From positions 1-64,000 of the forward strand of contig NZ_JABWGX010000016.1 in NCBI RefSeq assembly GCF_021730435.1: a stretch of 64,000 nucleotides of DNA. The letters run 5' to 3'. A program made the translations under genes and the position numbers. Under the pieces are notes generated by a model. It saw nothing but the letters and a program-made list of their open reading frames with translations. It was not told the origin of the DNA and did no database searches. Position 1 is the stretch's first letter. Every line of letters starts with the position of its first letter. Origin of the DNA: Xanthobacter agilis (lineage in GTDB: Bacteria; Pseudomonadota; Alphaproteobacteria; Rhizobiales; Xanthobacteraceae). Positions 8,285-48,936 of the stretch are shown here, piece by piece.

Positions 8285-8298
8285 TCGGAGGTGCGGCG

Positions 8299-28506: not shown

Positions 28507-28547
28507 TCAACTAGTCGGTTGACTTTTTGTGGGGGCGATGGTGCTAT
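28507..28547 (+). promoter_or_regulatory. Operator A overlapping a promoter of the cycloisomerase-CoA transferase operon
   Basis: The palindrome TCAACTAGTCGGTTGA (28507-28522; 5-bp arms) shares its last four bases with a -35 TTGACT (28519-28524). A 17-bp spacer leads to TGCTAT (28542-28547). Two near-identical palindromes occur at 45306-45321 and 48869-48884. Such CTAG-centred sites are typical TetR-family operators, so repression is inferred. Confidence 0.65.
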
Positions 28548-28661
28548 TCCCCACGCCGAAGGCCGCTTCAAGAGCCTCCGGTGCCATCCCTTAAGGGTCG
28601 AAACGCATCCGCCTCGCATGCTCCCTCATGGAGCGGGCGCACCGAAGGACCGAGCCTCCCC

Positions 28662-29828
28662 ATGAAAATCGTCAAAGTCGAAATCATCCCGATCACCACC
28701 CCGCTGCGCCGACCCATCGTGATGCGGGGCACGACGATTTCGGGCATCCACTCCATCGTGTTGAAGCTCCACACCGACGAGGGGCTGATCGGCATCTCGG
28801 AATCTGGCGATACGTCTTCGTGGTATCGGGGCGAGACCCAGGATTCCATGACTGCGATGATCGCAGACTTCTTCGCGCCGCAGATTCTTCTTGGGGAAGA
28901 CCCCACCAAGATCGAGAAGATCGTGGGCCGCATGGACATCATGGCCCGCGACAACAACCAGGCCAAGGCGACGGTGGATTTCGCCCTGCACGACCTCACC
29001 GGCAAGATCCTGAATGTGCCGGTGTTCACGCTCCTTGGCGGCAAGACGGTGGATCGCGTACCGCTCGGTCTCGTGCTCTCCGCCGGCAAGCCGGAGGTGA
29101 TGGTGCCGGAAGCGCTGGCGGTGGTGAAGGAGGGCTACAGCTTCGTGAAGCTGAAGACCGGCCACGGCACGCTGAAGGACGATGTGGCCATGGTGGCGGC
29201 GGTGCGCGAGGCGGTGGGCGACGATGTCGACCTGTTCATCGATGTCAACGGCTTCTGGACCTATGACCAGGCGTTCGCAACCATCCGGGCACTGGAGAAA
29301 TACAATCTCTCCAAGATCGAGCAGCCGCTGCCGGCCTGGGACATCGAGGGCATGGCGCGCCTGCGCGGCAAGGTGGGCACCGCCATCTATGCGGACGAAG
29401 GCGCCCAGGAACTGCACGATCTCTACAACATCATCGAGAAGCGCGCCGCCGACGGCCTCATGATCAAGACCCAGAAGGCGGGCGGGCTGCTGAAGGCCAA
29501 GCGCTGGCTGACCATGGCGCGGCTCGCCAACCTGCCGGTCATCTGCGGCTGCATGGTGGGCTCGGGCCTGGAGGCGAGCCCGGCCGCCCATCTGCTGGTG
29601 GCCGACGATTGGATCTCCCGCTTCCCGCAGGAAAATGCCGGCCCGCTGCACATCCACGACGTGCTGAACAGCGCCGCCATTAAGGACGATCTGGCCCTCA
29701 ACGTGCCGCGTTTCGAGGGCGGCTACCTTTATCCCAACGATGGGCCGGGCCTCGGCATCACCATCAATGACGAGGTGCTGAAGGCCCTGGCGACCCCCGG
29801 CAAGTCGCCGCGCGTCATCACGCTCTGA
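28662..29828 (+). CDS. Enolase-superfamily enzyme, muconate cycloisomerase-like
   Basis: The 388-residue protein belongs to the mandelate racemase/muconate lactonising group. The catalytic and metal residues are in order: K163-x-K165 (FVKLKTGHG), D194 (FIDVNGFW), E220 (KIEQPLP), D245 (YADEGAQ) and K269 (MIKTQKAGG). This is the muconate-cycloisomerase pattern (KxK on one side, Lys on the other), which also covers dipeptide epimerases and racemases. Substrate cannot be assigned. The ATG at 28662 begins the family-typical MKIVKVEIIPI. It heads an operon with two CoA-transferase-family genes, which suggests an acid or its CoA ester as substrate. Confidence 0.85.
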   Translation: MKIVKVEIIPITTPLRRPIVMRGTTISGIHSIVLKLHTDEGLIGISESGDTSSWYRGETQDSMTAMIADFFAPQILLGEDPTKIEKIVGRMDIMARDNNQAKATVDFALHDLTGKILNVPVFTLLGGKTVDRVPLGLVLSAGKPEVMVPEALAVVKEGYSFVKLKTGHGTLKDDVAMVAAVREAVGDDVDLFIDVNGFWTYDQAFATIRALEKYNLSKIEQPLPAWDIEGMARLRGKVGTAIYADEGAQELHDLYNIIEKRAADGLMIKTQKAGGLLKAKRWLTMARLANLPVICGCMVGSGLEASPAAHLLVADDWISRFPQENAGPLHIHDVLNSAAIKDDLALNVPRFEGGYLYPNDGPGLGITINDEVLKALATPGKSPRVITL

Positions 29829-29834
29829 GCCCGA

Positions 29835-29856
29835 CCGGCGCCGCGCGCGGCGCCGG
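29835..29856. other. Perfect 22-bp palindrome between the cycloisomerase-like and CoA-transferase genes
   Basis: CCGGCGCCGCG followed immediately by CGCGGCGCCGG is a perfect 22-bp palindrome, 6 bp after the stop codon and 33 bp before the next start. No T-run follows. It may fold as an intercistronic mRNA hairpin. Confidence 0.55.
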
Positions 29857-29888
29857 CGCCCCCATAAGAAGATGCAAGAGGAAACCCC

Positions 29889-31115
29889 ATGAGCACGTTC
29901 ACGCCCACCGGCGGCCTGAAGGGATTGCGCATTCTCGATATCAGCCAGGCGCTGGCCGGCCCCTTCTGCAGCCAGATGCTGGCCGACCACGGAGCCGACG
30001 TCATCAAGATCGAGCCGCCTGGCGGCGACATGGCGCGCCGCGTCGGCCCGTTCGCGGCGGAAGACGACCTCAAGGCCTATGGCGGCATGTATCAGTGCTG
30101 CAACCGCAACAAGCGCGGCATGGTCCTGGATCTGAAGCGCCCCGAGGGCCGCGAGGTGCTGCTCAAGATGGTGGAAAGCGCCGACGCGGTGGTGGAGAAT
30201 TTCCGCGTCGGCGTCATGGAGCGGCTGGGCGTCGGCTATGAGGTGCTGGCGGAGCGCAATCCGCGCCTCGTCTACACCTCCATTCGCGGTTTCGGTGATC
30301 CGCGCGGCGGCCGCAGCCCCTATGCGGACTGGCCGGCGGTGGACATCGTCTCCCAGGCCATGGGCGGCCTGATGGGCCTCACCGGTCCCGACGTGGACAG
30401 CCCCATGAAGGTGGGCGCGGGGCCCGGCGACGCCATTCCCGGCCTGTTCGCGGCCTTCGCCACCATGGTGGCGCTGTGGGAGGCGCGCGCGTCCGGCAAG
30501 GGCCAGTATGTGGATGTGGGCATGGTGGATTCCGTGCTCGCCTTCTGCGAGCCGGTCACCAACATCTTCTCCTATCTCGGCAAGGTGCCGGGGCCGGTGG
30601 GCAACCGCAACCCCGAGATCGCCCCCATGGGCGCGGTGCGCGCCAAGGACGGCTGGGTGGTGCTGGCGGTGCCGCCGGGGCGCATGTGGGCCACCTTCTG
30701 CGAGGCCATCGATCGCCGGGATCTCATCGACGATCCGCGCTTTGCCACCGAGCGGGCGCGGGTGGACCATGCCGACGCGGTCTACAAGGTGATCGAGGAC
30801 TTCACCGCCACCCGCACCAAGGCGGAGCTGACCCAGATCCTGGGCGGCAAGATCCCGTTCGGCCCGGTTTACACGGCGGCCGACATCTTCGCCGATCCCC
30901 ATTTCACCGTCCGCGACATGCTGCCCACGGTGGAGCAGCCGGGCATTGAGCGGCGCATCACCGTGCCCGGCGTGCCGCCGAAGCTCAGCCGCACCCCCGG
31001 CGGCGTCCATGTGCGGGCGCCCCTCCTGGGCGAGCACACCCAGGAGGTGATGGCGGAGTTCGGCTTTTCCGCCGCCGAGGTGGAACAGCTGCGTCAGGTC
31101 GCGGCCATCGGCTGA
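29889..31115 (+). CDS. CaiB/BaiF-family (class III) CoA-transferase
   Basis: The 408-residue protein shows the family pattern LRILDISQALAGPFCSQMLADHGADVIKIE (13-42, in part), VVENFRVGVMERLGVGYE and the catalytic aspartate D181 in GAGPGDAIPG, matching Asp169 of formyl-CoA transferase. Class III enzymes move CoA between carboxylic acids via a covalent aspartyl intermediate. AGAGGAAAC precedes the ATG. It is followed 14 bp later by a second family member with a different active site, so this one is more likely to be a true transferase. The donor and acceptor acids are unknown. Confidence 0.88.
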   Translation: MSTFTPTGGLKGLRILDISQALAGPFCSQMLADHGADVIKIEPPGGDMARRVGPFAAEDDLKAYGGMYQCCNRNKRGMVLDLKRPEGREVLLKMVESADAVVENFRVGVMERLGVGYEVLAERNPRLVYTSIRGFGDPRGGRSPYADWPAVDIVSQAMGGLMGLTGPDVDSPMKVGAGPGDAIPGLFAAFATMVALWEARASGKGQYVDVGMVDSVLAFCEPVTNIFSYLGKVPGPVGNRNPEIAPMGAVRAKDGWVVLAVPPGRMWATFCEAIDRRDLIDDPRFATERARVDHADAVYKVIEDFTATRTKAELTQILGGKIPFGPVYTAADIFADPHFTVRDMLPTVEQPGIERRITVPGVPPKLSRTPGGVHVRAPLLGEHTQEVMAEFGFSAAEVEQLRQVAAIG

Positions 31116-31129
31116 CAGGGGGCGGACAG

Positions 31130-32218
31130 ATGAGCGAAGGCAAAGGTCCCCTCGCCGGCGTGCGGGTGGTGGAGTTCGCCGGCATCGGCCCGTGCCCGTT
31201 CGCGGGCATGCTGCTGGCGCAGATGGGCGCCGAGGTGCTGCGCATCGAGCGCGACGGGCACGCCAATTACCTGCCCATCCCGGAGCGGTTCGATCTGCTC
31301 AACACTGGCAAGACCCGGCTTGCCCTCGACATGAAAAGCGCGGCTGGCAAAGCGCGGATCTTCGCGATCCTCGCCAGGGCGGATGCGCTGATCGAGGGCT
31401 ACCGCCCCGGCGTGATGGAGCGCCTGGGCCTGGGGCCGGAGGCGGTGCGCGCGCACGCGCCCCGGCTCGTTTACGGCCGCGTCACCGGCTGGGGGCAGGA
31501 CGGTCCCTATGCCCAGGAGGCGGGGCATGACATCAATTATATCGCCATCACCGGCGCGCTTGCCGCCATCGGCCCGCGGGATGGGCCGCCGGTGCCGCCT
31601 CTGAACCTGGTGGGCGACTTCGCCGGTGGCCTTTATCTGTGCTTCGGCGTGGTGTCCGCGCTGCTCGCCGCCCGCTCCAGTGGCGAAGGGCAGGTGGTGG
31701 ATGCGGCCATGGTGGACGGCGCCGCCCATCTCATGACCTTCCTCTATGGATTGAACCAGGCCGGCCTGTGGCGCCTGGAGCGCGGCAGCAACGAGGCCGA
31801 CGGCGGCTTCCCCTTCTACGGGGTCTATCAGGCCGGCGACGGGCGCTGGCTGGCGGTGGCGGCGGCGGAGATGAAGTTCCGCCTGGCGTTGCTGGAGGGG
31901 CTTGGCCTCGATCGGGAATGGGCGGACATGGCCACCCGTCGCAAGGACTGGGCGCGGGTGCGCGCGGTGCTCGCGGCCGCCTTCAAGGCGCGCGACCGCG
32001 ATGACTGGGTGCGGCTGCTCGCCGGCACCGATTCCTGTGTGTCGCCAGTGCTCGACATGGCCGAGGCGCCGGCTGATCCCCACGCCGTGGCGCGGGGGCT
32101 GTTCGAGGTGGTGGACGGGGTGGTGCGCCCGGCGGCCGCGCCGCGCTTCTCGCGGCCGACGCGGGCACCGGCCATCGCCGATCCCGCCGATCTGCTCGGC
32201 CGCTGGGGGGCGGGCTGA
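31130..32218 (+). CDS. CaiB/BaiF-family protein, alpha-methylacyl-CoA racemase-like
   Basis: The 362-residue protein resembles alpha-methylacyl-CoA racemase rather than a transferase. H133 in EAGHDINYIAITG and D163 in LNLVGDFAGG keep the 30-residue spacing of His126 and Asp156 in the mycobacterial enzyme, and E247 sits near the position of Glu241. Racemases of this type epimerise 2-methyl-branched acyl-CoA esters so that S-specific acyl-CoA dehydrogenases can act. The nearby acyl-CoA dehydrogenase genes fit this. It is the last gene of the plus-strand operon and converges on the ligase gene with a 20-bp gap. Confidence 0.85.
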   Translation: MSEGKGPLAGVRVVEFAGIGPCPFAGMLLAQMGAEVLRIERDGHANYLPIPERFDLLNTGKTRLALDMKSAAGKARIFAILARADALIEGYRPGVMERLGLGPEAVRAHAPRLVYGRVTGWGQDGPYAQEAGHDINYIAITGALAAIGPRDGPPVPPLNLVGDFAGGLYLCFGVVSALLAARSSGEGQVVDAAMVDGAAHLMTFLYGLNQAGLWRLERGSNEADGGFPFYGVYQAGDGRWLAVAAAEMKFRLALLEGLGLDREWADMATRRKDWARVRAVLAAAFKARDRDDWVRLLAGTDSCVSPVLDMAEAPADPHAVARGLFEVVDGVVRPAAAPRFSRPTRAPAIADPADLLGRWGAG

Positions 32219-32238
32219 GCCGAGGCGCCGCCCCCCGC

Positions 32239-33813
32239 TCAGGCGTCCGCGCGGGGGGCGGCGTGGTCCGGGGTGATGCCGGCGTGCTGGCGGCGGAACA
32301 GTTCCATCAGCTCACCCTTGGCGATCTTGCCCAAGGCGGTGCGCGGCAGCGCCGGCAGCATCAGCATGTGGCGCGGAAGCTTGTAGCGGGCGAGTCGCCC
32401 GTCGCACCAGGCGCGCAGCTCCTCCAGGGTGGGCGGCACCGTGCTCGCCGGCACCAGCGCGGCGCACACCACCTCGCCGAACGTCTCGTCCTTCACGCCG
32501 AACACGGCCACCTCGGCAATGCCGGGATGGGCGATGAGCAGGTCTTCCACCTCACGCGGGAAGATGTTCTCGCCGCCGGAGATGATGAGGAAGTTCATGC
32601 GCTCCACCAAAGTGAAGAAACCGTCCTGGTCGCGCCGGGCGATGTCCCCGGTGTGGATCCAGCCGTCGCGGATGGCGGCGCGGGTGGCCGCCGGGTCGGC
32701 CCAATAGCCCATCATGCCGCTGGTGTCGGCATGGACGATCACCTCGCCGGCCTCGCCCTCGGCCACGTCGCGGCCGGCGTCGTCCACGATCCGGCTCAGG
32801 GTGTTGAACACCGGGCGGCCGGTGGCGCGCGGATGGTCGCCGGCATGTTCGGGGCGCAGGCAGGCGATGAGCCCGGCATCGGTGGTGCCATAGCCCTGGA
32901 AGAAGGAGACGTGGGGCAGCGCCCGGCGCGCCCGCGCCAGTAGCTCGGCGGCGATGGGCATGGCTCCATAATGCACCACCCGCAGCGAGGACAGGTCGAG
33001 CCCGCCGCTCTCCACCACCGGCAGCAGGATGGACAGCATGGTGGGCACCCAATGGGTGAGGGTGATGCGATGGCGGGCGATGTCCTCCAGCACCGCGCGC
33101 GGGTCGAACGCCCCGCGATGGCACACCACGCTGGCCCCCACCATCAGCGCCGGGCCCAGCACCGAGGCGAAGCCGCCATTGTGGAACAGCGGCACCGCCA
33201 GTTGCACCACGTCCGGCTCCCGCACCTCCATTTCGATCCCGAAGGCGGTGAAGATGCGCAGGTATTTCTCGTGGGAGATCATCACCCCCTTGGCGCGGCC
33301 GGTGGTGCCGGAGGTGTACATGATGGCGGCGCAGCTCTTCGGGTCCACGGGCGGAGCGTCGAACGCATCGGGCCCGTCCTGGGTCAGCTCGCGGAGATCC
33401 GGAAGGCCGGTGGGCGCGCTGGCGCGCAGGCTCACCAGGGCCGGCGGGGCGGCGAGGCCGGCGCAGGCGATGCGTGCTTCGCTGATGAAGGGCCCTTCCG
33501 CGAACAGCAGCCTGGGGGTGCAATGGGCGATGAGGTCGCGCATTTCCCGCGCGGCGAGGCGCACGTTGACAGGCACCAGGATGGCGCCGAGCTTCGCCAC
33601 GGCCTGCGCCACCAGCGCGAACTCGGGGCAATTGAACGCGAGCAGCGCGACCCGATCGCCGTGGGTCACGCCCTGCCCGCGGAGGCGGTTCGCCAGTCGA
33701 TTGGAGAGGGTGTCGAGGTCGCGGTAGGTCAGAGCATGGTCGGCCAGGCGGATGGCGACCTTCTCCGGGCACCGGCAGGCGTTCATCCGCGAGATATCAC
33801 CAATCGTGTACAT
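32239..33813 (-). CDS. Acyl-CoA synthetase (AMP-forming, ANL superfamily)
   Basis: The 524-residue ligase has the P-loop YTSGTTGRAKG (166-176), the adenine motif FFQGYGTTDAG, the hinge-region GWIHTGDIARRDQDGF and the catalytic lysine K496 in TALGKIAKGEL. It activates a carboxylic acid to its CoA ester; the closest types are medium-chain/aromatic acid ligases. GGGAGA precedes the ATG at 33813. It is the last gene of a minus-strand operon that starts near 40541, 13 bp after the Bcr-type transporter. Confidence 0.9.
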   Translation of the reverse strand: MYTIGDISRMNACRCPEKVAIRLADHALTYRDLDTLSNRLANRLRGQGVTHGDRVALLAFNCPEFALVAQAVAKLGAILVPVNVRLAAREMRDLIAHCTPRLLFAEGPFISEARIACAGLAAPPALVSLRASAPTGLPDLRELTQDGPDAFDAPPVDPKSCAAIMYTSGTTGRAKGVMISHEKYLRIFTAFGIEMEVREPDVVQLAVPLFHNGGFASVLGPALMVGASVVCHRGAFDPRAVLEDIARHRITLTHWVPTMLSILLPVVESGGLDLSSLRVVHYGAMPIAAELLARARRALPHVSFFQGYGTTDAGLIACLRPEHAGDHPRATGRPVFNTLSRIVDDAGRDVAEGEAGEVIVHADTSGMMGYWADPAATRAAIRDGWIHTGDIARRDQDGFFTLVERMNFLIISGGENIFPREVEDLLIAHPGIAEVAVFGVKDETFGEVVCAALVPASTVPPTLEELRAWCDGRLARYKLPRHMLMLPALPRTALGKIAKGELMELFRRQHAGITPDHAAPRADA

Positions 33814-33826
33814 GGGCGTTCTCCCG

Positions 33827-35038
33827 TTATTCATTATCTTTTGAATGTATTTCGCCGCGCGCTCCGTGGTCGAGATGGCGGCCGAGGATGAGCAGGACAA
33901 AGTCGAAACCCTGGATGGCGAGCATGGCCAGCACGGTGGCGACGGCGCCGTGCTGCACCACCATGCTGCCGGCGGTGGAGGCCAGGGCGCCGATGCCCAT
34001 CTGCAGGAAGCCGATGGAAGCCGAGGCCGTGCCCCGCAGGTCGGGAAGCTGCGCCATGGCGAGCCCGGTGGCGCAGGCAAGGCCCAGCCCATGACCGAAC
34101 GCGACGACCAGCAAAGGCAGGAACAGCCCGACGAGGGTGAGCGGCACCAGGGCGACGAGCGCGAGCTGAAGCGAAAGGCCGGCAAGGCTGACGCCGGCGG
34201 CGACCAGCATCAAGCGCCGGTGGTCCACCCGCAGCAGCAGGCGCCGCGCCACCGCATTGCCCAGAATGAAGCCGAGCGGCGCGGTCATGGCCATGGCGCC
34301 GTAGGTGCTCGGAGTGCCCTTCAGCACGTCCACCACCAGGAAGGGACCGGCCGCCATGATCGTGAAATTGGTGGCGGGAAACAGTGCGGCGGCCACCGCG
34401 TTCAGCATGAAGCCACGGTGGCGCATGGCGACCGGGTAGGCGCTCACCAGGGAGATCAAGGTGAGCGGGTTGCGGTTCAGGTGGGTTTCGGGCAGGGCCT
34501 GAAGGCAGGCGCCGAACAGCACCAGCGCGCCGCCCCCGAGCAGCAGGAACACGATGCGCCAGCCCAGCCATTCGGTGATGAAGCCGCCCACCGCCGGCGC
34601 GAACATGGGCGCCACCGCCGACACCATCACCACCGTGGAGAGGGCGGAAGCGAAGCGCTCGCGCTGGAACACGTCCTGCAGCACGGCGCGCGACATCACC
34701 ATGCCCACACAGCCGCCCAGCGCCTGGATGAAGCGGGCGACCAGCAGCAGATCGAGGGTGGCGGCGAAATAGCAGGCGAACGAGGCGAGCGCGTAGAGGG
34801 CGAGGCCACCCAGCACCACGGGACGCCGGCCGATGGCGTCGGACAGGGGGCCGTGGATGATCTGGCCGAAGCTGATGCCGATGAAATAAAGGGTCAGCGT
34901 CCATTGCGCGGCCGACGGGGTGACGGCGAACTGCGCCGCCACCGCCGGCAAGGCGGGCACATAGAAATTGAGGGCAAGCGGCCCCAGGGCGGCCATGCCG
35001 GCGAGAAGGAAGAGGCTTGGCGGCCTGATGGTGCCCAC
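33827..35038 (-). CDS. Bcr/CflA-type MFS transporter
   Basis: The 403-residue protein has 12 hydrophobic segments. The DHA1-type motif A (GPLSDAIGRRPVVLGG) lies after helix 2 and LALNFYVPALPAVAAQFAV near the N terminus is typical of the Bcr/CflA subfamily. These are drug or metabolite exporters; inside a catabolic operon it may export an aromatic intermediate or import substrate. It is flanked on both sides by acyl-CoA-metabolism genes in the same direction. Confidence 0.87.
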   Translation of the reverse strand: MGTIRPPSLFLLAGMAALGPLALNFYVPALPAVAAQFAVTPSAAQWTLTLYFIGISFGQIIHGPLSDAIGRRPVVLGGLALYALASFACYFAATLDLLLVARFIQALGGCVGMVMSRAVLQDVFQRERFASALSTVVMVSAVAPMFAPAVGGFITEWLGWRIVFLLLGGGALVLFGACLQALPETHLNRNPLTLISLVSAYPVAMRHRGFMLNAVAAALFPATNFTIMAAGPFLVVDVLKGTPSTYGAMAMTAPLGFILGNAVARRLLLRVDHRRLMLVAAGVSLAGLSLQLALVALVPLTLVGLFLPLLVVAFGHGLGLACATGLAMAQLPDLRGTASASIGFLQMGIGALASTAGSMVVQHGAVATVLAMLAIQGFDFVLLILGRHLDHGARGEIHSKDNE

Positions 35039-35146
35039 GCTGCGTTCCCCTTGAAGCCCGCGAGTGTGGCCGGAGCCGGCGGGCCGCGGGCCCGCGATGC
35101 CAGCCTCGGGTTGGTGCGCGGGCGGAGCGCTGCTCCGCCCGTCCCT

Positions 35147-36283
35147 TCAGTGCCGTGGGCCGGCGGGTTCCGTGCTGGCCGCGAAGCGTTCCAGGTGATG
35201 GGCAAGATCGCCGTGAAGCGCGCCGATCACCACCAGCCGCTTCAGATAGCGCCCCGCGCCATATTCGTCGGTCATGCCCATGGCGCCGTGAAGCTGGATC
35301 GCCGCCTGGCCGATGAAGCGACCGCTGCGGGCGACCTGCACCTTCGCCGCGGCGATGAAGCGGCGCCGCACCTCCGCATCGGCGACATCCACGGCCATGG
35401 CCGCCGCGGCGGCGACAGAGCGGGCGAGCTCCAGCGCCACCTTCATGTCCACCAGCTTGTGCTGGAGCGCCTGGAACTTGCCGATGGGCGCGCCGAACTG
35501 CTTGCGGGTGCGCAGATATTCCGCCGTCAGGTCGAACAGCGCCGCCATGGCGCCGACCGCTTCGCCGGTGAGCGCGGCGACCCCGCGGTCCACCGCCTGT
35601 TCCATCGCCGGCAGCGCCGCGCCGGCGGGTCCGAGGCGGGCGGTGGCCTCGACCGTCACCGCGTTCAGGGTTAGCTCCGCCGCCGGTCGCCCGTCGAGGG
35701 TGGTGATCGCCCGCAGGACGACGCCGGGCGTCCGGGTGGGCACGAGATAAAGGCAAAGGCCCTCCGGATCGCCGTGAGCGCCCGACGCGCGGGCGCTCAC
35801 CAGCAGCAGGTCGGCCTCTGGCGCGTTGAGAACCACAGCCTTGCGGCCTGAGATCACCACCCGCTCGCCCTCGGCGCGGGCGGTGGTCGCCACCTGGGCG
35901 AGGTCGTAGCGGGCCTCAGGCTCCAGGAAGGCGGGCACCACCACCAGGTCGCCGGCGGCGAGAGCGGGCAAAAGCTGCGCCTGTTGCGTCGCCTCGCCCA
36001 GCGCCGCGATCAGGGGACCGGCCACCGCCACGGTCGGCACGAACGGGTCCGTGAGCAACTGGCGTCCCATCTCCTCGGCGACGATCATGGTCTCCACCCC
36101 GCCGCCACCCAGGCCGCCATGGGCCTCGCTGAGGGTGAGGCCGAGCAGCCCCAGCTCGGCGAAGCGGCTCCAGCGCCGGTCGGGTGCTTCCGGAGTCTTC
36201 TCCTGGCGGGCGCGGGCATCGGCCGCGAAGCGGGCCGCCATGTCGCGCAGGAGGGTCTGTTCCTCGTTCAAAATGAAATCCAT
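35147..36283 (-). CDS. Acyl-CoA dehydrogenase, small partner of a probable heteromeric enzyme
   Basis: The 378-residue flavoprotein shows ACAD parts (LGLTLSEAHGGLGGGG, TRKQFGAPIGKFQALQHKLVDM, QLHGAMGMTDEYGAGRYLKR). It lacks the catalytic YEG glutamate and its middle domain is diverged. The next gene upstream encodes a second ACAD 9 bp away. Pairs of this kind form heterotetramers in steroid, pimelate and cyclic-acid breakdown, with one subunit supplying the base. It is therefore probably a non-autonomous subunit; inferred. Confidence 0.86.
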   Translation of the reverse strand: MDFILNEEQTLLRDMAARFAADARARQEKTPEAPDRRWSRFAELGLLGLTLSEAHGGLGGGGVETMIVAEEMGRQLLTDPFVPTVAVAGPLIAALGEATQQAQLLPALAAGDLVVVPAFLEPEARYDLAQVATTARAEGERVVISGRKAVVLNAPEADLLLVSARASGAHGDPEGLCLYLVPTRTPGVVLRAITTLDGRPAAELTLNAVTVEATARLGPAGAALPAMEQAVDRGVAALTGEAVGAMAALFDLTAEYLRTRKQFGAPIGKFQALQHKLVDMKVALELARSVAAAAAMAVDVADAEVRRRFIAAAKVQVARSGRFIGQAAIQLHGAMGMTDEYGAGRYLKRLVVIGALHGDLAHHLERFAASTEPAGPRH

Positions 36284-36292
36284 GGCCGCCCC

Positions 36293-39681: not shown

Positions 39682-39686
39682 GGCGC

Positions 39687-40814: not shown

Positions 40815-40832
40815 GGAAGGGGGCAAGGGGCC

Positions 40833-40928: not shown

Positions 40929-40930
40929 GG

Positions 40931-42376
40931 TCACTGCCGGGCGGGGCTGATCGCCGCCAGGGGCAGGGGTGGCTCCGCCGGCCTTGTCTGCGGCAGATCG
41001 GTGGCACGGGTGTCCTCGCGCAGCGAACGGGCCGCCCACAGATAGTGCAGGCCCGCCCACACCAGGAACACGGTGAAGCAGATCATGCTGAGGCGGATGC
41101 CGGTTGCCGCGGCGGCGGCGCAGGCGGTCGCTTGCGGATTGCTGGCCGCCGGGCCGGCACAGGCGGCAAGATAGGCGCCGGTTCCGGTGAAGGCGTGGCC
41201 CGCCAGGGTGTCGCTGACGAGGCCGATGGCGGCCGGGCCGAGGCCGTGGCCAATGAGGCTCATCACCAGCAGCACCACCGCCGTCGAAGAGGCCCGCATG
41301 CGCGGATGGACAGCGGCGTGGACCACCGCGAAGGTGGGCCCGTTCCACGACATCACCAGCACCAGGAACAGGAAGATGCCGGCGATGGCGAGGGTTTCGC
41401 TGCTCTGGGCGAAGGCGAGATAGGCCACCGGGGCACCGAGCACGCTGGCGAACCCCGGCACCCACGAATACCAGCGCTTGTCGCGGTGGGCGAGCAGATC
41501 GGAAAGATAGCCACCAAGGGCGATGCCGATGAAGCCGCCGACCCCAACGGTGATGCCGAAGGTGAAGCCGGCCTGGAGCAGGCTCATGCCGAAGATGCGG
41601 CCGAGATAGATGGGAATGAACTGGTTGATGGCTTGCAGGCCGAAGGCGCCGATGGCGGTGCCGATGATCATGTGCCGCGCCGCGCGTTTCGCCCACAGGC
41701 GCCGCAGTACCTCGCTGAAGGGCGGAACCTCCGCCGAGGCGGCGCCGGCGGCACCGTCATAGCGCCCCCGCGCAGGCTCCCGCAGGGTGAGAAAGGTCAG
41801 CACGCCGAGGAAGATGCCGGGCAGGCCGAGGATGATGAAGGCGTAGCGCCAACCGAATGTCTGCGCCAGCCAGCCGCCGCCGAAGGCCGCCGCGAGCACG
41901 CCGATCGGGACGCCGAGGGCGTAGACGGCGAGCGCCGTGGCGCGGCGGTGGGGCGGAAACTGATCGCCGATCAGCGAATGCGCGGCGGGGGTGCAGCCCG
42001 CTTCGCCGATGCCCACCCCGGCCCGGAACAACACCATCTGCCAGAAATTCGCCGCCATGCCGCACAGGGCCGCGAATGCCGACCAGATGACGATGCACAC
42101 GGCGATGAGCCGAACCCGGTGCGTGCGCTCCGCGAGGCGGCCGAGGGGCAGGCCGGCGACAGTATAGACGAGGGCGAAGGAGAGCCCGCCAAGGAGCCCC
42201 ACCTGGAAATCCGACAGCCCCAGGTCCGCCTTGATGGGTCGGGCGAGCACCGCGATCACGATCCGGTCGAGGAAGCTGCAGGCATAGACGAGCACCAGCA
42301 GAACCAGGAGCCAGACCTTGTAAAGGGCGGATGTTTTCTCGAATGCGGGGCGTGGCGCCGCCGTATCCTCTTTCAT
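40931..42376 (-). CDS. MFS transporter, spinster/organic-acid type
   Basis: The 481-residue protein has about 12 membrane segments with YACSFLDRIVIAVLARPIK near the N terminus, PLGRLAERTHRVRLIA as motif A, and VGIGEAGCTPAAHSLIGDQF. This pattern is seen in spinster-like and aromatic/organic-acid MFS carriers. The ATG at 42376 follows GGGAGGAAA eight bases upstream. It stands alone between two catabolic gene groups and is a candidate importer of the island's substrate (inferred). Confidence 0.86.
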   Translation of the reverse strand: MKEDTAAPRPAFEKTSALYKVWLLVLLVLVYACSFLDRIVIAVLARPIKADLGLSDFQVGLLGGLSFALVYTVAGLPLGRLAERTHRVRLIAVCIVIWSAFAALCGMAANFWQMVLFRAGVGIGEAGCTPAAHSLIGDQFPPHRRATALAVYALGVPIGVLAAAFGGGWLAQTFGWRYAFIILGLPGIFLGVLTFLTLREPARGRYDGAAGAASAEVPPFSEVLRRLWAKRAARHMIIGTAIGAFGLQAINQFIPIYLGRIFGMSLLQAGFTFGITVGVGGFIGIALGGYLSDLLAHRDKRWYSWVPGFASVLGAPVAYLAFAQSSETLAIAGIFLFLVLVMSWNGPTFAVVHAAVHPRMRASSTAVVLLVMSLIGHGLGPAAIGLVSDTLAGHAFTGTGAYLAACAGPAASNPQATACAAAAATGIRLSMICFTVFLVWAGLHYLWAARSLREDTRATDLPQTRPAEPPLPLAAISPARQ

Positions 42377-42538
42377 GCCGTTTCCTCCCGAATGATTGGG
42401 GATGGGGCAAGCCGCGCCCTCCCCGTTTCTTTTTTTGGCGATTCTTGGCGTTCCAGGAGGGGGCCAGCGATGGAGCCCCAAAAGGGCCCGCGGCCTCCTC
42501 CCGGCTTTTTCGGGTGGGTGCCCCCACGCGGCGCAGGT

Positions 42539-43966
42539 TCAGAACGGAAAGGCCCGCCGACCCTGCTGGATGGTGACCCACTTGGTCTCGGTCATCTCCT
42601 CCATGGACCATTGACCGCCCTCGCGGCCCATGCCGGAATCCTTGACGCCGCCGAACGGCGCATGGGGATTGTCCTCGATAGTGGAGCTGTTGACATGCAC
42701 CACGCCCGCTTCCAGGTGGCGGGCGAAGTGGAGTGCCCGGTCGAGGCTGCGGGTGAGCACGGCGGAGGACAGGCCGTAGCAACTGTCATTCGCCAAGGTG
42801 AGGGCGTGGTCGGCGTCGCGGGCCTTGATGACCGACGCGACCGGACCGAACAGCTCGTCCCTGAAGGCGGACATCTGCGCCGTCACGTCGGCGAGCACGG
42901 TCGGTTCGAAGAAGTTGCCCTCATGCCCGCCGCCGCACATGAGCCGCGCCCCGTCCTTGACCGCCCCGGCCACCACGCCGGCTATGAGATCGCACTGGGA
43001 GGCGCGGATGAGCGGGCCGATCACCGTGTCCGGCTGGCGCGGATCGCCCATCTTCAACTGCCGGACCTTGGCCACGAAACGCTCGAGAAACGCATCGTAG
43101 ACGGCCGCATCCACGATGATGCGCGATCCGGCCATGCAGATCTGGCCCTGGTGGATGAAGATGCCAAAGGCGGCCGTCGCCACGGCATAATCGAGGTCGG
43201 CGTCGTCCAGCACGATCACCGGGCTCTTGCCGCCCATCTCCAGGGTGATCTTCTTGCCCACCCGCGCGCATTCCACCGCCAGGAAGCGGCCGACGCGGGT
43301 GGAGCCGGTGAAGGAGATCATCTTCACCCGCGGGTCGGCGAGCAGCACCCCGCCGAGAATGGCGCCGTCGCCCGGCACGACGTTCAGCACGCCCGGCGGC
43401 AACCCGGCCTCCTGGAAGATCTCCGCCGCCTTCAAGGCGATCATCGAGGTCTCCTCGGACGGCTTCATCACCACCGTGTTGCCGGCGGCGATGGCCATGC
43501 ACACTTTCTTGGTGCCGAGCAGCAGCGGATAATTGAACGGGGCGATGGCGCCGATGACGCCCAGCGGCCGCCTGAGGGTGAAGGAAAGGCAGTCCGGCGC
43601 ATCGGAGGGGATGACGTGGCCGAAGATGCGCCGGGCCTCGCCCGCCGCCGAGCGCAGCATGGAGGCGGTGAACTCCACCTCGAAGCAGGCCTTGCCGACG
43701 GTGGAGCCGGCTTCGTCGATGAGCAGGTCCACCAGCTCCTCGCGGTGCCGCTCCAGCGCGTCCGCCATGCGGATGAGGATCAGCTCGCGCTCGGCCGCCA
43801 GGGTCTCACCCCAGGATGCGAATGCCGCTTCGGCGGCGTCGATGGCGTGCGCCATGTCCTGCGGCCAGCACATGGGCACATGGCCGATGGTGCCGCCGGT
43901 GGCGGGGTTGACGACCGCCATTTTTGGCGCGTCGGTTTCGGCGAAGCCGCCGTTGATGAAACCCAT
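42539..43966 (-). CDS. Aldehyde dehydrogenase, benzaldehyde/vanillin type
   Basis: The 475-residue NAD(P)-dependent enzyme has the catalytic C277 (HQGQICMAGSR) and general base E243 (TLEMGGKSP), with the cofactor turn SFTGSTRVGR. Its length and PFNYPLLLGTKK, IEDNPHAPFGG resemble benzaldehyde and vanillin dehydrogenases, which oxidise the aldehyde released by HCHL-type enzymes. In this island it would turn an aromatic aldehyde into a benzoate that feeds gentisate cluster 2; substrate is inferred. It is transcribed as the same-strand gene next to an acyl-CoA dehydrogenase. Confidence 0.88.
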   Translation of the reverse strand: MGFINGGFAETDAPKMAVVNPATGGTIGHVPMCWPQDMAHAIDAAEAAFASWGETLAAERELILIRMADALERHREELVDLLIDEAGSTVGKACFEVEFTASMLRSAAGEARRIFGHVIPSDAPDCLSFTLRRPLGVIGAIAPFNYPLLLGTKKVCMAIAAGNTVVMKPSEETSMIALKAAEIFQEAGLPPGVLNVVPGDGAILGGVLLADPRVKMISFTGSTRVGRFLAVECARVGKKITLEMGGKSPVIVLDDADLDYAVATAAFGIFIHQGQICMAGSRIIVDAAVYDAFLERFVAKVRQLKMGDPRQPDTVIGPLIRASQCDLIAGVVAGAVKDGARLMCGGGHEGNFFEPTVLADVTAQMSAFRDELFGPVASVIKARDADHALTLANDSCYGLSSAVLTRSLDRALHFARHLEAGVVHVNSSTIEDNPHAPFGGVKDSGMGREGGQWSMEEMTETKWVTIQQGRRAFPF

Positions 43967-44068
43967 GGGTGTCCTCTCCTGTCCCGCGGCCCATGCCGTT
44001 CGCCCGTGGAGTGTGTCCGGGGGCGGGTCGGTGGGCGGCTTGTCGTTGTTCGGCTTGGAAGGGGGGCG

Positions 44069-45217
44069 TCAGAGTGTGCGGGCGATGATCTCCTTCAAGG
44101 TCTCGTTGGAGCCGCCATAGATTTTCTGCACCCGCGCATCCACATAGAGCTGGGCGATGGGGTATTCGAGCATGTAGCCGTAGCCGCCGAAAAACTGCAG
44201 GCAGGCGTCAACGATCTCGCATTGCTTCTGACTGCACCACCATTTGGCCATGGCGCTGGTGGCCGGGTCCACCTCCTCGCCGCCGACCAGCTTCAAGATG
44301 AGCTGGTCCACGAACGTGCGGGCAATGCGCGCCTCGGTGAGGCATTCGGCCAGGCGGAAGCGGGTGTTCTGGAACCCGAACAGCGTCTGGTTGAACATCT
44401 CGCGCTGCTTGGTGTAGTCCACCGCCAACGCGATGGCCCGTTCGGCCGAGGCCACGGCGGTGAGGGAGATGGCCAGGCGCTCGCGGGTGAACACCTTCAT
44501 CAGATTGCCGAAGGCATTGCCCTCTACCCCACCGAGCAGGTTCTCCGCGGGCACCCGCAGGTCTTCCAGAAAGACCTCGCAATTGTCGAGGCTGCCCTGG
44601 CCGATCTTTTCCAGGTTCCGGCCCACATTGAAGCCCGGCCAGGAGGTGTGCGCCAGGAACAGCGACAGGCCCTTGGCACCTTCGCCGCCGGTGCGGGCGG
44701 CGATCACCGCGATGTCGGCCTGCCGGCCCAAGGTGACGAAGGTCTTGCTGCCATTGATGACATAGCTGTCGCCATCGCGCCGGGCGGTGGTGCGGATGGT
44801 CTTCACGTCGCTGCCGGCACCGGGCTCGGTGGCGCACACCGCCACCACATATGCGCCGGTGGCCAGCTTGGGCATCCATTTCAGGCGCTGTTCATGGGTG
44901 GCGCTGTGCAGCAGCAGGTGCGGCCCGCCGACGCTGCCGGGCACGAAGCCGAAGGCCGTATCCACCACGCGCACCTGCTCTTCCATGATCACCGCCTCAT
45001 GGGCGAAGGTGCCGCCACCACCACCATATTCGGTGGGTACGCTGGCGCACAACAGGCCGAGTTCGCCCGCTTTCAGCCACACCTCGCGGTCGATGATCTT
45101 GTTCTTCTTCCACTTGTCCGCATAGGGCGCGACCTCGGTTTCGAAGAAGCGCCGCGCGGTCTCGCGCACCAATGCGAGTTCTTCGTTCATCCAGGGAGAG
45201 GTGTAAGGGGCCGACAT
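44069..45217 (-). CDS. Acyl-CoA dehydrogenase
   Basis: The 382-residue enzyme is a homomeric-type ACAD: VPTEYGGGGGTFAHEAVIME, CATEPGAGSDVKTIRTTA, VINGSKTFVTLG and KIYGGSNETLKEIIARTL. As in long-chain and isovaleryl enzymes the YEG glutamate is YGG and the likely base is in helix G (TRERLAISL). It removes two hydrogens from an acyl-CoA. Its promoter region carries operator B, so it is probably co-regulated with the cycloisomerase-CoA transferase operon. The aldehyde dehydrogenase gene follows after about 100 bp. Confidence 0.9.
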   Translation of the reverse strand: MSAPYTSPWMNEELALVRETARRFFETEVAPYADKWKKNKIIDREVWLKAGELGLLCASVPTEYGGGGGTFAHEAVIMEEQVRVVDTAFGFVPGSVGGPHLLLHSATHEQRLKWMPKLATGAYVVAVCATEPGAGSDVKTIRTTARRDGDSYVINGSKTFVTLGRQADIAVIAARTGGEGAKGLSLFLAHTSWPGFNVGRNLEKIGQGSLDNCEVFLEDLRVPAENLLGGVEGNAFGNLMKVFTRERLAISLTAVASAERAIALAVDYTKQREMFNQTLFGFQNTRFRLAECLTEARIARTFVDQLILKLVGGEEVDPATSAMAKWWCSQKQCEIVDACLQFFGGYGYMLEYPIAQLYVDARVQKIYGGSNETLKEIIARTL

Positions 45218-45295
45218 GCCTGTTCCTTTTGAGCTGGTGCCGCGCGGGACCTTCAGCCGCCGCCATCCGGCGGGGGTCGCGCTGACCGCGTCAAA

Positions 45296-45324
45296 CTATA
45301 ATCTACCAACTAGACGGTTGGCAA
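45296..45324 (-). promoter_or_regulatory. Operator B inside the promoter of the acyl-CoA dehydrogenase gene
   Basis: On the minus strand TTGCCA (45319-45324) and TTATAG (45296-45301) are separated by 17 bp. The palindrome CCAACTAGACGGTTGG (45306-45321) lies in the spacer and touches the -35. It matches operators A and C. A repressor here would block RNA polymerase directly. Confidence 0.65.
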
Positions 45325-45370
45325 TTTTCTCACGGTGCGGGCGACCGATTCCGCCCATCGTGGCGCGGGG

Positions 45371-46573
45371 TCAGACGGTGACCGCGTTCACGTCGTAGGT
45401 GAACAGCCATTCGTACCGGTTGAGGATCGCCGCGCGGCTCCATTCCTGGTCGACATAGGCCTGGGCCCCGGCCTCGGTGGCGAGGGCGGGATTGTGGAAG
45501 CGCTCCGTATTCGCGGCCGCCCCCATCACCTTGCGGGCGGTCACGTCGAGGCGCGCCGCCTCGTAGCGCAGCAGGGCTTCGGGAATGTTGTCGCGATGGG
45601 CCTCGAGGCTGCGGCCCAGCACCACCGCATCCTCCAGCGCCATCACCGCGCCTTGGGCCAGGAACGGCAGCGTGGGATGGCAGGCATCGCCCAGCAGGGT
45701 GGCGCGTCCGCGCGTCCAGGCGCTCATCGGCGGGCGGCCCATGAGCGCCCATTTGAACAGCGAGGGCGCATTCTCGATCATGGCCTGAATGTCCGAATGC
45801 CAGCCGGCGAAATCAGCCTTGCACTCCGCGAGCGTGCCTTCCGCGTTCCAGGATTCGGTGTGCCAGTCGCTGCGCTCCACGGTGGCGACGAAGTTCATCA
45901 GCTGGCCGCCGCGCAGCGGGTAGCACACCACATGGGCGCCGGGGCCGACCCAATTGGTGGCCACCGGACGCGTCATGTGCTGTGGCAGGCGCTCCATGGG
46001 GATGACGCCGCGCCAGGCCATCATGCCGGAGAATTGCGCCTTGCTCTCGCCCCACAGGGCGTGGCGGATGCGCGAGTGCACGCCATCGGCGCCGATCAGC
46101 GCATCGCCGCTCACGCGGGTGCCGTTCTCCAGAGTGAGGGTGACGGTGTTATCGCTCTGCGCGCAGCCCGCCACCCGCGCCCCCAGATGCAGCGCATCGG
46201 GCTTCAAGGCCGTCACCGCGTCCACCAGCACCTGAAGCAGATCGGGCCGGAACACGGTGAGATAGGGAAAGCCGTAGCGCTCCACCGCCTCGTGGCCGAG
46301 ATCGAACAGCTTCCAGGTCTGGCCGGTGTTCCAGAGCCGGATTTCCTTGCCGTCCGCATTGCAGGACAGGGTCTTGAGGGCCTCGAACACGCCGAGGGTG
46401 TTCAGCGCGCGGTTGCCATTGGGGCTGATCTGCACGCCGGCGCCGACCTCGCGGAAGGCATCGGCCTGCTCGTAGATGTCCACGTCGAAGCCGCGTTGCA
46501 GCAGCGACAGCGCCGCCGCCATGCCGCCGATGCCACCGCCGGCGATGAGAATGTGGGCCGTCTTCGCTCCCAT
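45371..46573 (-). CDS. FAD-dependent aromatic hydroxylase (salicylate/3-hydroxybenzoate hydroxylase type)
   Basis: The 400-residue class A flavoprotein monooxygenase has ILIAGGGIGGMAAALSLL (8-25), DG motif IGADGVHSRIRHALWG and GD motif TLLGDACHPTLPFLAQGA. It is distinct from the hydroxylase at 21655. The next genes upstream in the operon are a gentisate dioxygenase and an FAH hydrolase, so it probably makes gentisate, or hydroxylates a close analogue. The start at 46573 opens MGAKTAHILIAGGG; upstream in-frame codons would add an arginine-rich leader. Confidence 0.84.
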   Translation of the reverse strand: MGAKTAHILIAGGGIGGMAAALSLLQRGFDVDIYEQADAFREVGAGVQISPNGNRALNTLGVFEALKTLSCNADGKEIRLWNTGQTWKLFDLGHEAVERYGFPYLTVFRPDLLQVLVDAVTALKPDALHLGARVAGCAQSDNTVTLTLENGTRVSGDALIGADGVHSRIRHALWGESKAQFSGMMAWRGVIPMERLPQHMTRPVATNWVGPGAHVVCYPLRGGQLMNFVATVERSDWHTESWNAEGTLAECKADFAGWHSDIQAMIENAPSLFKWALMGRPPMSAWTRGRATLLGDACHPTLPFLAQGAVMALEDAVVLGRSLEAHRDNIPEALLRYEAARLDVTARKVMGAAANTERFHNPALATEAGAQAYVDQEWSRAAILNRYEWLFTYDVNAVTV

Positions 46574-46699
46574 GGTCGTCTCTCTTCCTGAAGATGGTCT
46601 GGTTGCGGCGCCGGGACTGGCGCCGGGCAAGCCGTGGTCAAGCACCTTCCCGCGCAGTCGCGCCCTGCGCGCATGGTGAAGGCATGTCAAATCAATGTC

Positions 46700-47680
46700 T
46701 TACTTTGGTTGTGCAGGGTCGCGGATGAAGAAGCCGAGCTTGCTCAAGGTGGGCTCGTCGCTCACTTCCAGCAGCAGCGCGGGGGAGGCGGATTGCACTT
46801 CAAAGGCGTGCCAGGAGGGCACGCAGAAGACATCACCGCGCGTCCACTCGAAGCGGCGCTCGCCCACCTGTGCGGCGCCGGCGCCGGAGAGCACGGCGAG
46901 GATGCGCGAGGCCGTGGTCCGCGGCTCCGCCATCCGGCCGCCGGCGGGCATGTCGATGTAGGTGACGGCGACGGTGGGGATATGGGCATCGATGTCCAGC
47001 CGGTGGCGGCGCGTGCCGTCGGCGCGGGCCGGCGCCTGCTCCAGCTCCGCCCTCATCCGCTCCAGGCCGAACACGAACGGGCAGGCCTCGGGGTCGGGCA
47101 CGGAGGTCACCTCCTGGTGGCCCCCAGGCAGGTTCTCGCAGAACATGGGTTCGAGCCGGTGCACCAGCGGCACGTCCAGGACATCGATCCAATAGGCGTT
47201 GGCCGCGCCTTCGTTGTAGTGGCTGTGCCAATGCCAGTTGGGGGTGAGCAGGACGTCGCCCGCGCGCATGGGCAGCTTGATGCCGTTCACGACGGTGAAC
47301 ACCCCGTCCTCGGCATCGAGGATCAGGCGCATGGCATTGGCGGTGTGGCGGTGGGTGCGGGCATATTCGCCCGGCTTGATCATCTGGTAGGCGCACACCA
47401 GGGTGCGCACCGTGTCGTAATCATTGTCGTCCACCGGGTTGAACATGAGCAGGTTACGCCGCTCCGCATCCTCGGTGCTCATCCACGCGCCGGCGCGGTC
47501 CATGGCCTCGGCCGCCTCGGCATAGCGCCAGTTCAGGGGTTGGAAGCTGGTGCGCGGCTCGGGCCACAGGGACGAGCGCTTCTTGTGCCAACCGGCGGTG
47601 AGGTGGTTTTCGTTGAAGACGCGATAGAGATCGTCGAGGTTCTCGGCGCCGCGAATATCGGCGATGGCCCTGCTGGTCAT
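46700..47680 (-). CDS. Gentisate 1,2-dioxygenase-like cupin protein
   Basis: The 326-residue cupin enzyme has metal ligands H110 and H112 (YARTHRHTANAMRLIL) and H150/H152 in TPNWHWHSHYNE, the pattern of gentisate and related salicylate or hydroxynaphthoate dioxygenases. It differs clearly from the dioxygenase at 24355-25407, for example PNWHWHSH against GGAWHDHGH. It should cleave gentisate or a substituted gentisate. The FAH hydrolase gene lies 10 bp upstream. No maleylpyruvate isomerase gene is present in this second cluster. Confidence 0.87.
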   Translation of the reverse strand: MTSRAIADIRGAENLDDLYRVFNENHLTAGWHKKRSSLWPEPRTSFQPLNWRYAEAAEAMDRAGAWMSTEDAERRNLLMFNPVDDNDYDTVRTLVCAYQMIKPGEYARTHRHTANAMRLILDAEDGVFTVVNGIKLPMRAGDVLLTPNWHWHSHYNEGAANAYWIDVLDVPLVHRLEPMFCENLPGGHQEVTSVPDPEACPFVFGLERMRAELEQAPARADGTRRHRLDIDAHIPTVAVTYIDMPAGGRMAEPRTTASRILAVLSGAGAAQVGERRFEWTRGDVFCVPSWHAFEVQSASPALLLEVSDEPTLSKLGFFIRDPAQPK

Positions 47681-47690
47681 AGGCGGCTCC

Positions 47691-48578
47691 TCACACCGGC
47701 ATTTTCTGGAAGTCGTAGGGCTTGGCGAACACGATGTTGTGCCCGCGCGCGCCCTGCACCACCGGCACGCTCATGCGGCCGACACCGGCGATGTCGATGG
47801 TCACCACGTCGCCATCGACGATGGGGCCCACCCCGGCCGGGGTGCCGGTGGCGAAGATGTCGCCGGGGTAGAGGGTTGTCGCCGAGGAGGCGATGGCGAT
47901 CATCTGCGGAATATCGACGATGAGATCCCGCGTGTTCGCCTGCTGCCGCAGCTCGTCATTCACCCACAGGCGCATGTCCACGTTGCCGGGGTCCGGCAGT
48001 TCGTCGGCGGTGACGATCCAGGGGCCGATGGGGGTGAAGGTCTCGTAGGACTTGCGCATCACCCGCTCTTCCTTGCCGCGCACGGTGATGTCGAGCAGGC
48101 AGCAATAGCCGAACACATGCTCCAGCGCCTTTTCCGGCGGAATTTCCCGGCCCTGCTTGCCGATCACGAGGCCGATCTCGCACTCGTGGTGGATCTGCCG
48201 GCCGGGCAGCGCCGGCAGCTCGATGGGGTCGTGCGGTCCGCTCAAGGAGGAGTTCGCCTTCAGGAAAAAACCCTGGATGTTGGCGAGCCCCTTGGAGGCC
48301 ATCTCGGTGGCGTGGTCGTGATAGTTGACCGGATAGGCGATGAGCTTGTTGGGCCAGGGAACGGGCGTCTCGAGCCGGGTGCCCTCGAATGGAATGCCGG
48401 GCGCGCTGGCGATGAGCGCGGCGATGCGGGGGCGCAGGGCTTCGAAGTCGCGGATCAGCCGGTTGATGGCCACCGGGGGCCATTCGTCGGCTGAGGCTCC
48501 GCACAGGGCGCTGAGATCGACGATCTTCCGGCCGTCGGTCACGCCCACGCGCCAGCCCTCGAAACGCACCAATTTCAT
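47691..48578 (-). CDS. FAH-family hydrolase, probable fumaryl- or maleylpyruvate hydrolase
   Basis: The 295-residue protein has the FAH catalytic domain: KLIAYPVNYHDHATEMASKG, FFLKANSSLSGP, the metal ligands in HHECEIGLVIGKQG and FATGTPAGVGPI. The long N-terminal domain differs from the short hydrolase of cluster 1. It would hydrolyse the ring-cleavage product to pyruvate and a C4 acid. Because no isomerase gene is nearby it may act directly on maleylpyruvate, or rely on the cluster 1 isomerase. The start at 48578 (MKLVRFEGWRVGV) is family-typical. It heads the three-gene operon. Confidence 0.87.
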   Translation of the reverse strand: MKLVRFEGWRVGVTDGRKIVDLSALCGASADEWPPVAINRLIRDFEALRPRIAALIASAPGIPFEGTRLETPVPWPNKLIAYPVNYHDHATEMASKGLANIQGFFLKANSSLSGPHDPIELPALPGRQIHHECEIGLVIGKQGREIPPEKALEHVFGYCCLLDITVRGKEERVMRKSYETFTPIGPWIVTADELPDPGNVDMRLWVNDELRQQANTRDLIVDIPQMIAIASSATTLYPGDIFATGTPAGVGPIVDGDVVTIDIAGVGRMSVPVVQGARGHNIVFAKPYDFQKMPV

Positions 48579-48936
48579 GGATCGACCTTTCCTGCGATGC
48601 CGGTCTCGCCGGGGCTGCCAAGCCAGGGGCCGCTCGGCGCGTCGCGTCGGCTGGAAGGCGGCGTGACCGCATCGGAATGTGGGAAGAGCGCCCGGCACCG
48701 TGGGCCATGCGGGGGACCGCCCCCACCATGCCACGTCACCCGATGAACTCGTGGACCAAAGGCTAGCAAGCGGCCCCGCCGTCACAAGTCATCTTCGGCG
48801 ATGGGAGCCATCGCGGTTTGAGATGGGACATCCGGCACAACGCGGGGCATGGTGCGGCTCTCAAATAACCAAATAGTTGGTTGGCTTTTATGTCGTGGCC
48901 GGCTATGAGGATCCTCACCGCGCCCTCCCTTGATGG
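48579..48936. other. Divergent intergenic region between gentisate cluster 2 and the alpha/beta hydrolase
   Basis: About 358 bp without a supportable gene. The right part (48860-48892) is AT-rich and contains operator C and a promoter. A promoter for the minus-strand FAH operon must also be here but no good -35/-10 pair was seen on that strand. Confidence 0.55.
48869..48909 (+). promoter_or_regulatory. Operator C overlapping the promoter of the alpha/beta hydrolase gene
   Basis: CCAAATAGTTGGTTGG (48869-48884) matches operators A and B. Its last four bases start a -35 TTGGCT (48881-48886), and a 17-bp spacer leads to TATGAG (48904-48909). The register of operator and -35 is identical to that at operator A. 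The site may also serve the divergent FAH operon. Confidence 0.6.

Follow-up and report, generated by a model that had tools for sequence, protein, structure and literature searches.

A Predicted 20-bp TetR Operator and a Candidate Regulon around an Enolase-Superfamily Enzyme in Xanthobacter agilis

In a 64,000-nucleotide stretch of Xanthobacter agilis DNA (contig NZ_JABWGX010000016.1, positions 1 to 64,000; hereafter the window), three closely similar 16-mers lie between genes of aromatic and acyl-CoA catabolism, which raises the question of which protein reads these sites (A, B, and C; Table 1) and which genes they join. The original prediction took them for a 16-bp operator of the TetR-family protein encoded beyond site C, and placed a cycloisomerase-CoA-transferase operon, an acyl-CoA dehydrogenase, and a gentisate cluster with a hydrolase in one regulon. 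The three sites are genuine and far exceed what chance would give, and comparison across genomes suggests that they are very probably operators of this TetR protein, which is predicted to repress at least three units. The regulon is new and its regulator belongs to a known family; the operator is longer, and the certain membership narrower, than first proposed. A catabolic cluster around an enolase-superfamily enzyme thereby gains a proposed operator, regulator, and set of genes.

Identity and Rarity of the Operator

All three 16-mers are present where they were predicted and fit the pattern YCAAMTAGWYGGTTGR. Across the genome (4,812,515 bases in 66 contigs), this pattern has three exact matches, all in the window, one match that differs at a single position, and 16 that differ at two, and the many random matches that a scan for the consensus might have returned were not seen. 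A mirrored-pattern control gives nine matches at up to two mismatches, compared with 20 for the pattern, and none at up to one; thus, the two-mismatch matches mean little. This excess of only about twofold is what speaks for a chance resemblance of the three sites in intergenic DNA. Since the pattern had been written from the three sites themselves, an independent test was made with a matrix derived from other genomes.

A contig search with the cycloisomerase-like protein encoded behind site A yielded 40 loci, 35 of them close (56-98% identity) and five distant (24-35%, L112-L116), and the distant ones were dropped. The 300-bp regions upstream of the CoA-transferase 1, acyl-CoA dehydrogenase, and cycloisomerase-like genes were searched without a prior motif. 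Among 65 such regions in 22 TetR-bearing loci, including the window, CAACC-N8-GGTTG occurs more often than any other gapped palindrome (32 regions, 21 loci). Shifted forms of the same palindrome rank next, with the N4 form occurring in 24 regions and 17 loci. In 20 swap shuffles, the best palindrome reached only 3-6 regions. In the other 14 loci (25 upstream regions), which include four in which the stretch fetched does not reach the TetR gene (L077, L078, L091, and L103) and three pieces of genomes already counted (L106, L108, and L110), the commonest gapped palindrome is present in at most three regions. As this palindrome emerged without a prior motif, the operator is taken to be 20 bp long, with the consensus YCAACCAACYRGTTGGTTGR, in which two 16-bp dyads overlap at an offset of 4 bp. 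The 16-mer is indeed shared by the three sites, but it is only part of the operator.

Sites A, B, and C match this consensus at 18, 17, and 17 of 20 positions, respectively, and at up to three mismatches they are the only places genome-wide (control, 0). For a symmetric weight matrix, 23 of 24 loci supplied 65 site positions, which gave 68 distinct sequences when both strands were read; the window and G014, a genome from another genus of the same family, were left out. The matrix ranks A (24.17), B (21.12), and C (17.33) first to third in the window, the next position scoring 13.76, and in first-order random sequence a score of 17.33 was reached twice in 9.6 Mb, or about 0.013 times per 64 kb. 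G014 carries the same genes at 79-98% identity (TetR, 83% over 229 residues), with the 16-mer of site A identical, site B conserved, and site C partly conserved (13/16). The 20-bp genome search, the independent matrix, and the conservation in G014 all contradict a chance resemblance, which is left with next to no probability. A compact version of the cluster is found in G081 (TetR domains, 45-47% identity; acyl-CoA dehydrogenase, 59%; CoA-transferases, 63% and 61%; cycloisomerase-like protein, 61%), with operator-like sites in four intergenic gaps. In the 20 kb fetched from this genome, a search at E 1e-8 found no counterpart of the window's MarR, LysR, or gentisate proteins.

Two further candidates were set aside. 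The one-mismatch 16-mer at C14:62494-62509 (L004:1501-1516), located 18 bp 5′ of a short-chain dehydrogenase gene, was not counted and is probably a chance match, since it is absent from the 20-bp matches at up to three mismatches and since 13 sister genomes gave three matches to the 16-bp pattern at up to one mismatch compared with five for the control in total. A terminator-like reading of site B was also dropped, its stem being the operator palindrome itself.

Pairing of the Operator with the TetR Protein

At a cut-off score of 17.3, applied with each locus's own base composition, the operator is found in 26 of 27 TetR-positive loci (26 genomes, L078 and L126 being from one) and in none of nine TetR-negative loci (eight genomes, L117 and L118 being from one), a count that is partly circular because most positive loci also trained the matrix; L106, L108, and L110 were left unscored. 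L098 is the one TetR-positive locus to fall short, at 17.0, and it carries an 18/20 site before both target genes. This pairing of TetR and operator recurs in alpha-, beta-, and gammaproteobacteria. The TetR-negative loci all carry the cycloisomerase-like gene, and those of Rhodococcus also carry the CoA-transferases and an aldehyde dehydrogenase; in the Cupriavidus loci, only gentisate genes and a transporter match beside the cycloisomerase-like gene. No TetR ortholog was found at E 1e-20 in five of the eight TetR-negative genomes, those that were searched whole. Four other genomes (G583-G586) possess a TetR protein of 46-59% identity, in three cases outside the stretch fetched first.

The surroundings of the TetR gene differ between orthologs and paralogs. 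Within 1.5 kb of the gene, a 12/12 site occurs in 21 of 28 ortholog entries (26 genomes) and an 11/12 site in three, while in the other four (the window, G014, L082, and L094) the site lies farther away. Of 27 paralogous TetR proteins (28-36% identity), none has a 12/12 site within this distance, one has an 11/12 site, and the rest have at most 10; the 11/12 sites (three ortholog entries and one paralog) fall within the shuffle range, which counts against the assignment to TetR. The 30 TetR ortholog entries form one clade (support 100/100), which is itself unsurprising since the ortholog and paralog groups were set by identity. The recognition helix reads H-K-A-T in the orthologs, whereas T or S replaces H in all 27 paralogs. 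What counts is that the recognition helix and the nearby site differ together between the two groups. In addition, in 18 of 20 beta- and gammaproteobacterial TetR loci, the TetR gene lies 3′ of a CoA-transferase 1 gene of the same orientation that has the operator in its upstream region, the exceptions being L082 and L096, which is cut at the contig start.

The sites might instead belong to the MarR protein (25547-26140) or the LysR proteins (26448-27398 and 27414-28397) of the window. MarR and LysR proteins are regulators of many aromatic pathways, and the second LysR gene, divergent from site A, adjoins this site in the window, in G014, and in Phaeospirillum (L078). However, within the fetched stretches, as opposed to whole genomes, homologs of this LysR protein occur only in those three loci, and homologs of the MarR protein only in the window and G014, plus a 35% match in L126, where about 9 kb separate it from the operators. 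The operator is nonetheless present in all but one of the TetR-positive loci, and no match to the pattern lies near the MarR gene. With most operator loci in these stretches devoid of copies like those of the window, MarR and both LysR proteins were rejected as the binder, and this explanation is very improbable. The choice of the TetR protein as likely binder, made in the original prediction, is strongly supported by the operator found beside its orthologs and not found in TetR-negative loci.

Several observations weigh against the assignment to TetR. The loci are not independent lineages, and the TetR-negative loci come from few (Rhodococcus, Cupriavidus, G519, and one 3.3-kb fragment), those of Cupriavidus being also without CoA-transferases. 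Two consensus positions out of 20 are missed at site A and three each at sites B and C. In the window, no operator lies directly 5′ of the TetR gene, and neither A nor C has more than a weak promoter match.

The loci of Rhodococcus (L093, L095, and L101) and Cupriavidus (L100, L102, and L111) carry the cycloisomerase-like gene and probably use another regulator, since neither such a TetR gene nor the operator is present in the locus. Nothing was found in a search of viral contigs for the TetR protein or in a search of plasmids for the cycloisomerase-like protein at E 1e-80.

Promoter Context and Proposed Mechanism

Each site had been described as overlapping a -35/-10 pair with 17-bp spacing. 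This spacing holds at A (TTGACT-17-TGCTAT) and C (TTGGCT-17-TATGAG), where both pairs are weak (8/12) and fail a strict scan, but at B the minus-strand pair TTGCCA-18-TATAGT (10/12) has an 18-bp spacer. The registers are as described: sites A and C overlap the -35 in one register, the hexamer starting within the final 4 bp of the operator, and site B sits in the spacer. In the orthologs, TTGAC contexts at operator ends have a -10-like hexamer (at least 4/6) 16-18 bp on in 32 of 38 cases, compared with 17% in shuffled sequence. The form GTCAA-N12-TTGAC, with a -35 start at both operator ends, is present in 16 loci, mostly between divergent acyl-CoA dehydrogenase and aldehyde dehydrogenase genes.

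An operator over the -35 or in the spacer fits repression by occlusion. One dimer, or two at full 20-bp sites, would cover the -35 region or the spacer and block RNA polymerase. Through site A, the TetR protein would repress the cycloisomerase-like enzyme and CoA-transferases 1 and 2; through site B, the acyl-CoA dehydrogenase, aldehyde dehydrogenase, and transporter; and through site C, the hydrolase, the porin, and TetR itself. Autoregulation is likely, given that the TetR gene follows the hydrolase and porin genes behind site C and follows the operator-preceded CoA-transferase 1 gene in beta- and gammaproteobacterial loci. The most likely inducer would be an acyl-CoA intermediate of an aromatic-acid pathway, which would release TetR from the DNA. 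The analysis establishes the identity and rarity of the sites, their conservation, and their coupling to this TetR protein; physical binding, repression, operon extents, the number of dimers, and the inducer are inferred.

The TetR protein could also bind these sites and activate, or its ligand could be a corepressor. Some TetR-family proteins act as activators. DarR, a fold neighbor of the TetR protein, binds DNA better with its ligand (PMC10636190). However, the operator lies over the -35 or in the spacer at the window sites, and over the -35 in many orthologs, where a bound protein would block rather than help polymerase, and activation or corepression is improbable.

The TetR Protein and Its Possible Ligand

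The TetR protein contains an N-terminal helix-turn-helix (PF00440, TetR_N; 51.5 bits against a cut-off of 24) and a C-terminal helical ligand and dimer domain (PF17932, TetR_C_24; 69.6 bits against 26.4), and it falls below the cut-off of the Bacillus FadR equivalog NF053878 (50.5 bits against 200). Its AlphaFold2 (AF2) model has a mean predicted local distance difference test score of 80, with residues 1-13 below 50 and residues 201-237 at about 54-68. Foldseek matches this model to PfmR of Thermus thermophilus (PDB 3vpr) at E 6.3e-9, and PfmR, AibR (with isovaleryl-CoA), and KstR2 occupy ranks 1-7 and 10-11. PfmR, AibR, KstR2, and FadR belong to an acyl-CoA-responsive TetR group. On the opposite side, DarR, with another kind of ligand, ranks 8, and FadR of B. 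subtilis first appears at rank 21; since DarR binds cyclic nucleotides, the fold points only weakly to acyl-CoA. Acyl-CoA as ligand is also suggested by the CoA-transferases and the acyl-CoA dehydrogenase in the regulon. The inducer may be an aryl-acyl-CoA and, with low confidence, perhaps derives from a meta-hydroxyphenylpropanoid feeding 3-hydroxybenzoate to gentisate.

PfmR is the best PDB match in both sequence and fold; it shares the TetR fold, and the two proteins are 33-34% identical when aligned by fold. AibR (PDB 5k7f, 5k7h, and 5k7z; isovaleryl-CoA and operator complexes) shares the TetR fold (TM-score by target of about 0.8, about 26% identity) and serves as a model for release by acyl-CoA. 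The likeness is one of fold, and AibR acts in a different pathway. The operator of DarR (PMC10636190; Nat Commun 2023) is likewise a 20-bp palindrome made of overlapping palindromes and is read by a dimer of dimers, but its letters are TAGATACTCCGGAGTATCTA, and a cyclic nucleotide ligand strengthens binding. Comparative genomics has also been used to reconstruct the catabolic TetR regulons of FadP, LiuQ, and PsrA in proteobacteria (PMC5343134), but these control fatty-acid or branched-chain amino-acid genes.

In G081 (L057:9609-10943, minus strand), a single open frame of 444 aa holds two TetR units, which are 47% and 45% identical to the TetR protein of the window. Both carry the HKATLYHY helix, forming a natural single-chain TetR pair. 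Mce3R (406 aa, in the PDB), which has two TetR units, is a possible parallel.

Regulon Members and Pathway

The units behind A, B, and C (Table 1) are well supported as predicted regulon members, so that the proposed grouping of the cycloisomerase-CoA-transferase operon, the acyl-CoA dehydrogenase, and the hydrolase stands. Gentisate cluster 2, which was placed in the same regulon, has a weaker claim. The first gene of the cluster is 286 bp away from site C, compared with 61 bp for the hydrolase gene. Because site C faces the hydrolase-porin-TetR unit, control of the cluster is argued from Phaeospirillum, in which the orthologous gentisate genes (72-78% identity) have their own operator about 70 bp upstream (L126:11706-11721); by this analogy, the cluster is a possible member. 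NCBIfam names gentisate dioxygenase and 3-hydroxybenzoate 6-monooxygenase for this cluster, below the cut-offs. The porin is probably in one transcription unit with the hydrolase and TetR.

Table 1. Predicted operators, regulator, and candidate regulon members in the window.
Feature	Position	Strand	Remarks
Operator A, 20 bp	28503-28522 (16-mer 28507-28522)	+	Upstream of cycloisomerase-CoA-transferase operon; overlaps weak -35 at 28519-28524
Operator B, 20 bp	45302-45321 (16-mer 45306-45321)	-	Within spacer of minus-strand promoter-like pair 45324-45295, acyl-CoA dehydrogenase unit
Operator C, 20 bp	48865-48884 (16-mer 48869-48884)	+	5′ of alpha/beta hydrolase gene
TetR-family regulator, likely to bind operators A, B, and C	51674-52387	+	Pfam, co-occurrence, clade and recognition helix, AF2 model, PDB neighbors
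Enolase-superfamily enzyme (MR_MLE, cycloisomerase-like)	28662-29828	+	First gene behind A; close to PDB 2qde
Class III CoA-transferase 1	29889-31115	+	
Class III CoA-transferase 2	31130-32218	+	
Acyl-CoA dehydrogenase	44069-45190	-	Behind operator B; start assigned by codon scoring, with 45217 as an alternative
Aldehyde dehydrogenase	42539-43966	-	Best PDB match is 4-hydroxybenzaldehyde dehydrogenase
MFS transporter	40931-42376	-	Likely end of operator-B unit; same order in G014
Alpha/beta hydrolase	48946-49806	+	Behind operator C; alternative start at 48937
Porin (Porin_2)	49986-51467	+	Separated from hydrolase by 179 bp and from TetR by 206 bp
Gentisate cluster 2 (FAD monooxygenase, gentisate dioxygenase-like cupin protein, FAA hydrolase)	45371-48578	-	Possible member

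PDB 2qde, the solved structure of a close relative of the cycloisomerase-like enzyme, bears a family name only. The PDB matches of CoA-transferase 1 include benzylsuccinate CoA-transferase, though another ranks best, and for the aldehyde dehydrogenase no NCBIfam model scores above its cut-off, the best being lactaldehyde dehydrogenase (437.6 against 650). The inducer is narrowed by an aldehyde dehydrogenase of aromatic type (by its nearest PDB entry), the CoA-transferases, the gentisate genes, and a nearby hydroxycinnamoyl-CoA hydratase/lyase; therefore, the regulon makes the substrate of the pathway testable by reporter screening. The regulon was not found described in the literature searched, most subscription journals lying outside that search, and no literature linking TetR, gentisate, and class III CoA-transferase, or 2QDE with Azoarcus, was found. 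The operator letters themselves turned up in one paper at most, whose title points to a pioneer factor.

It is tentatively proposed, with somewhat less in its favor than against it, that the TetR protein senses acyl-CoA specifically for an aromatic side-chain pathway, as yet undescribed, that is spread over alpha-, beta-, and gammaproteobacteria. This pathway would consist of the enolase-superfamily enzyme, paired class III CoA-transferases, the acyl-CoA dehydrogenase, and the aromatic-aldehyde dehydrogenase. The sensor would read two overlapping dyads whose ends can carry divergent -35 boxes, and the G081 fusion would be a natural single-chain repressor.

Neighboring Genes

Between the units behind A and B lies a block (32239-40493) encoding a hydroxycinnamoyl-CoA hydratase/lyase, an NDP-forming acyl-CoA synthetase-like protein, two acyl-CoA dehydrogenases, an MFS transporter, and an AMP-ligase. 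Its ECH gene (39687-40493) passes the NCBIfam cut-off for p-hydroxycinnamoyl-CoA hydratase/lyase (432.9 against 276). No operator was found for this ECH-to-AMP-ligase block in the window, and the 20-bp search gave no fourth place genome-wide. In G014, the block has another position with respect to the acyl-CoA dehydrogenase 3 unit. The window holds two separate gentisate-type clusters, at 21655-25407 and 45371-48578, of which the former adjoins the MarR gene and has no operator of the same type. At 174-8952, the window carries nitrogenase cofactor assembly genes (Oxidored_nitro proteins, NifQ, and DUF269), and the host may thus fix nitrogen.

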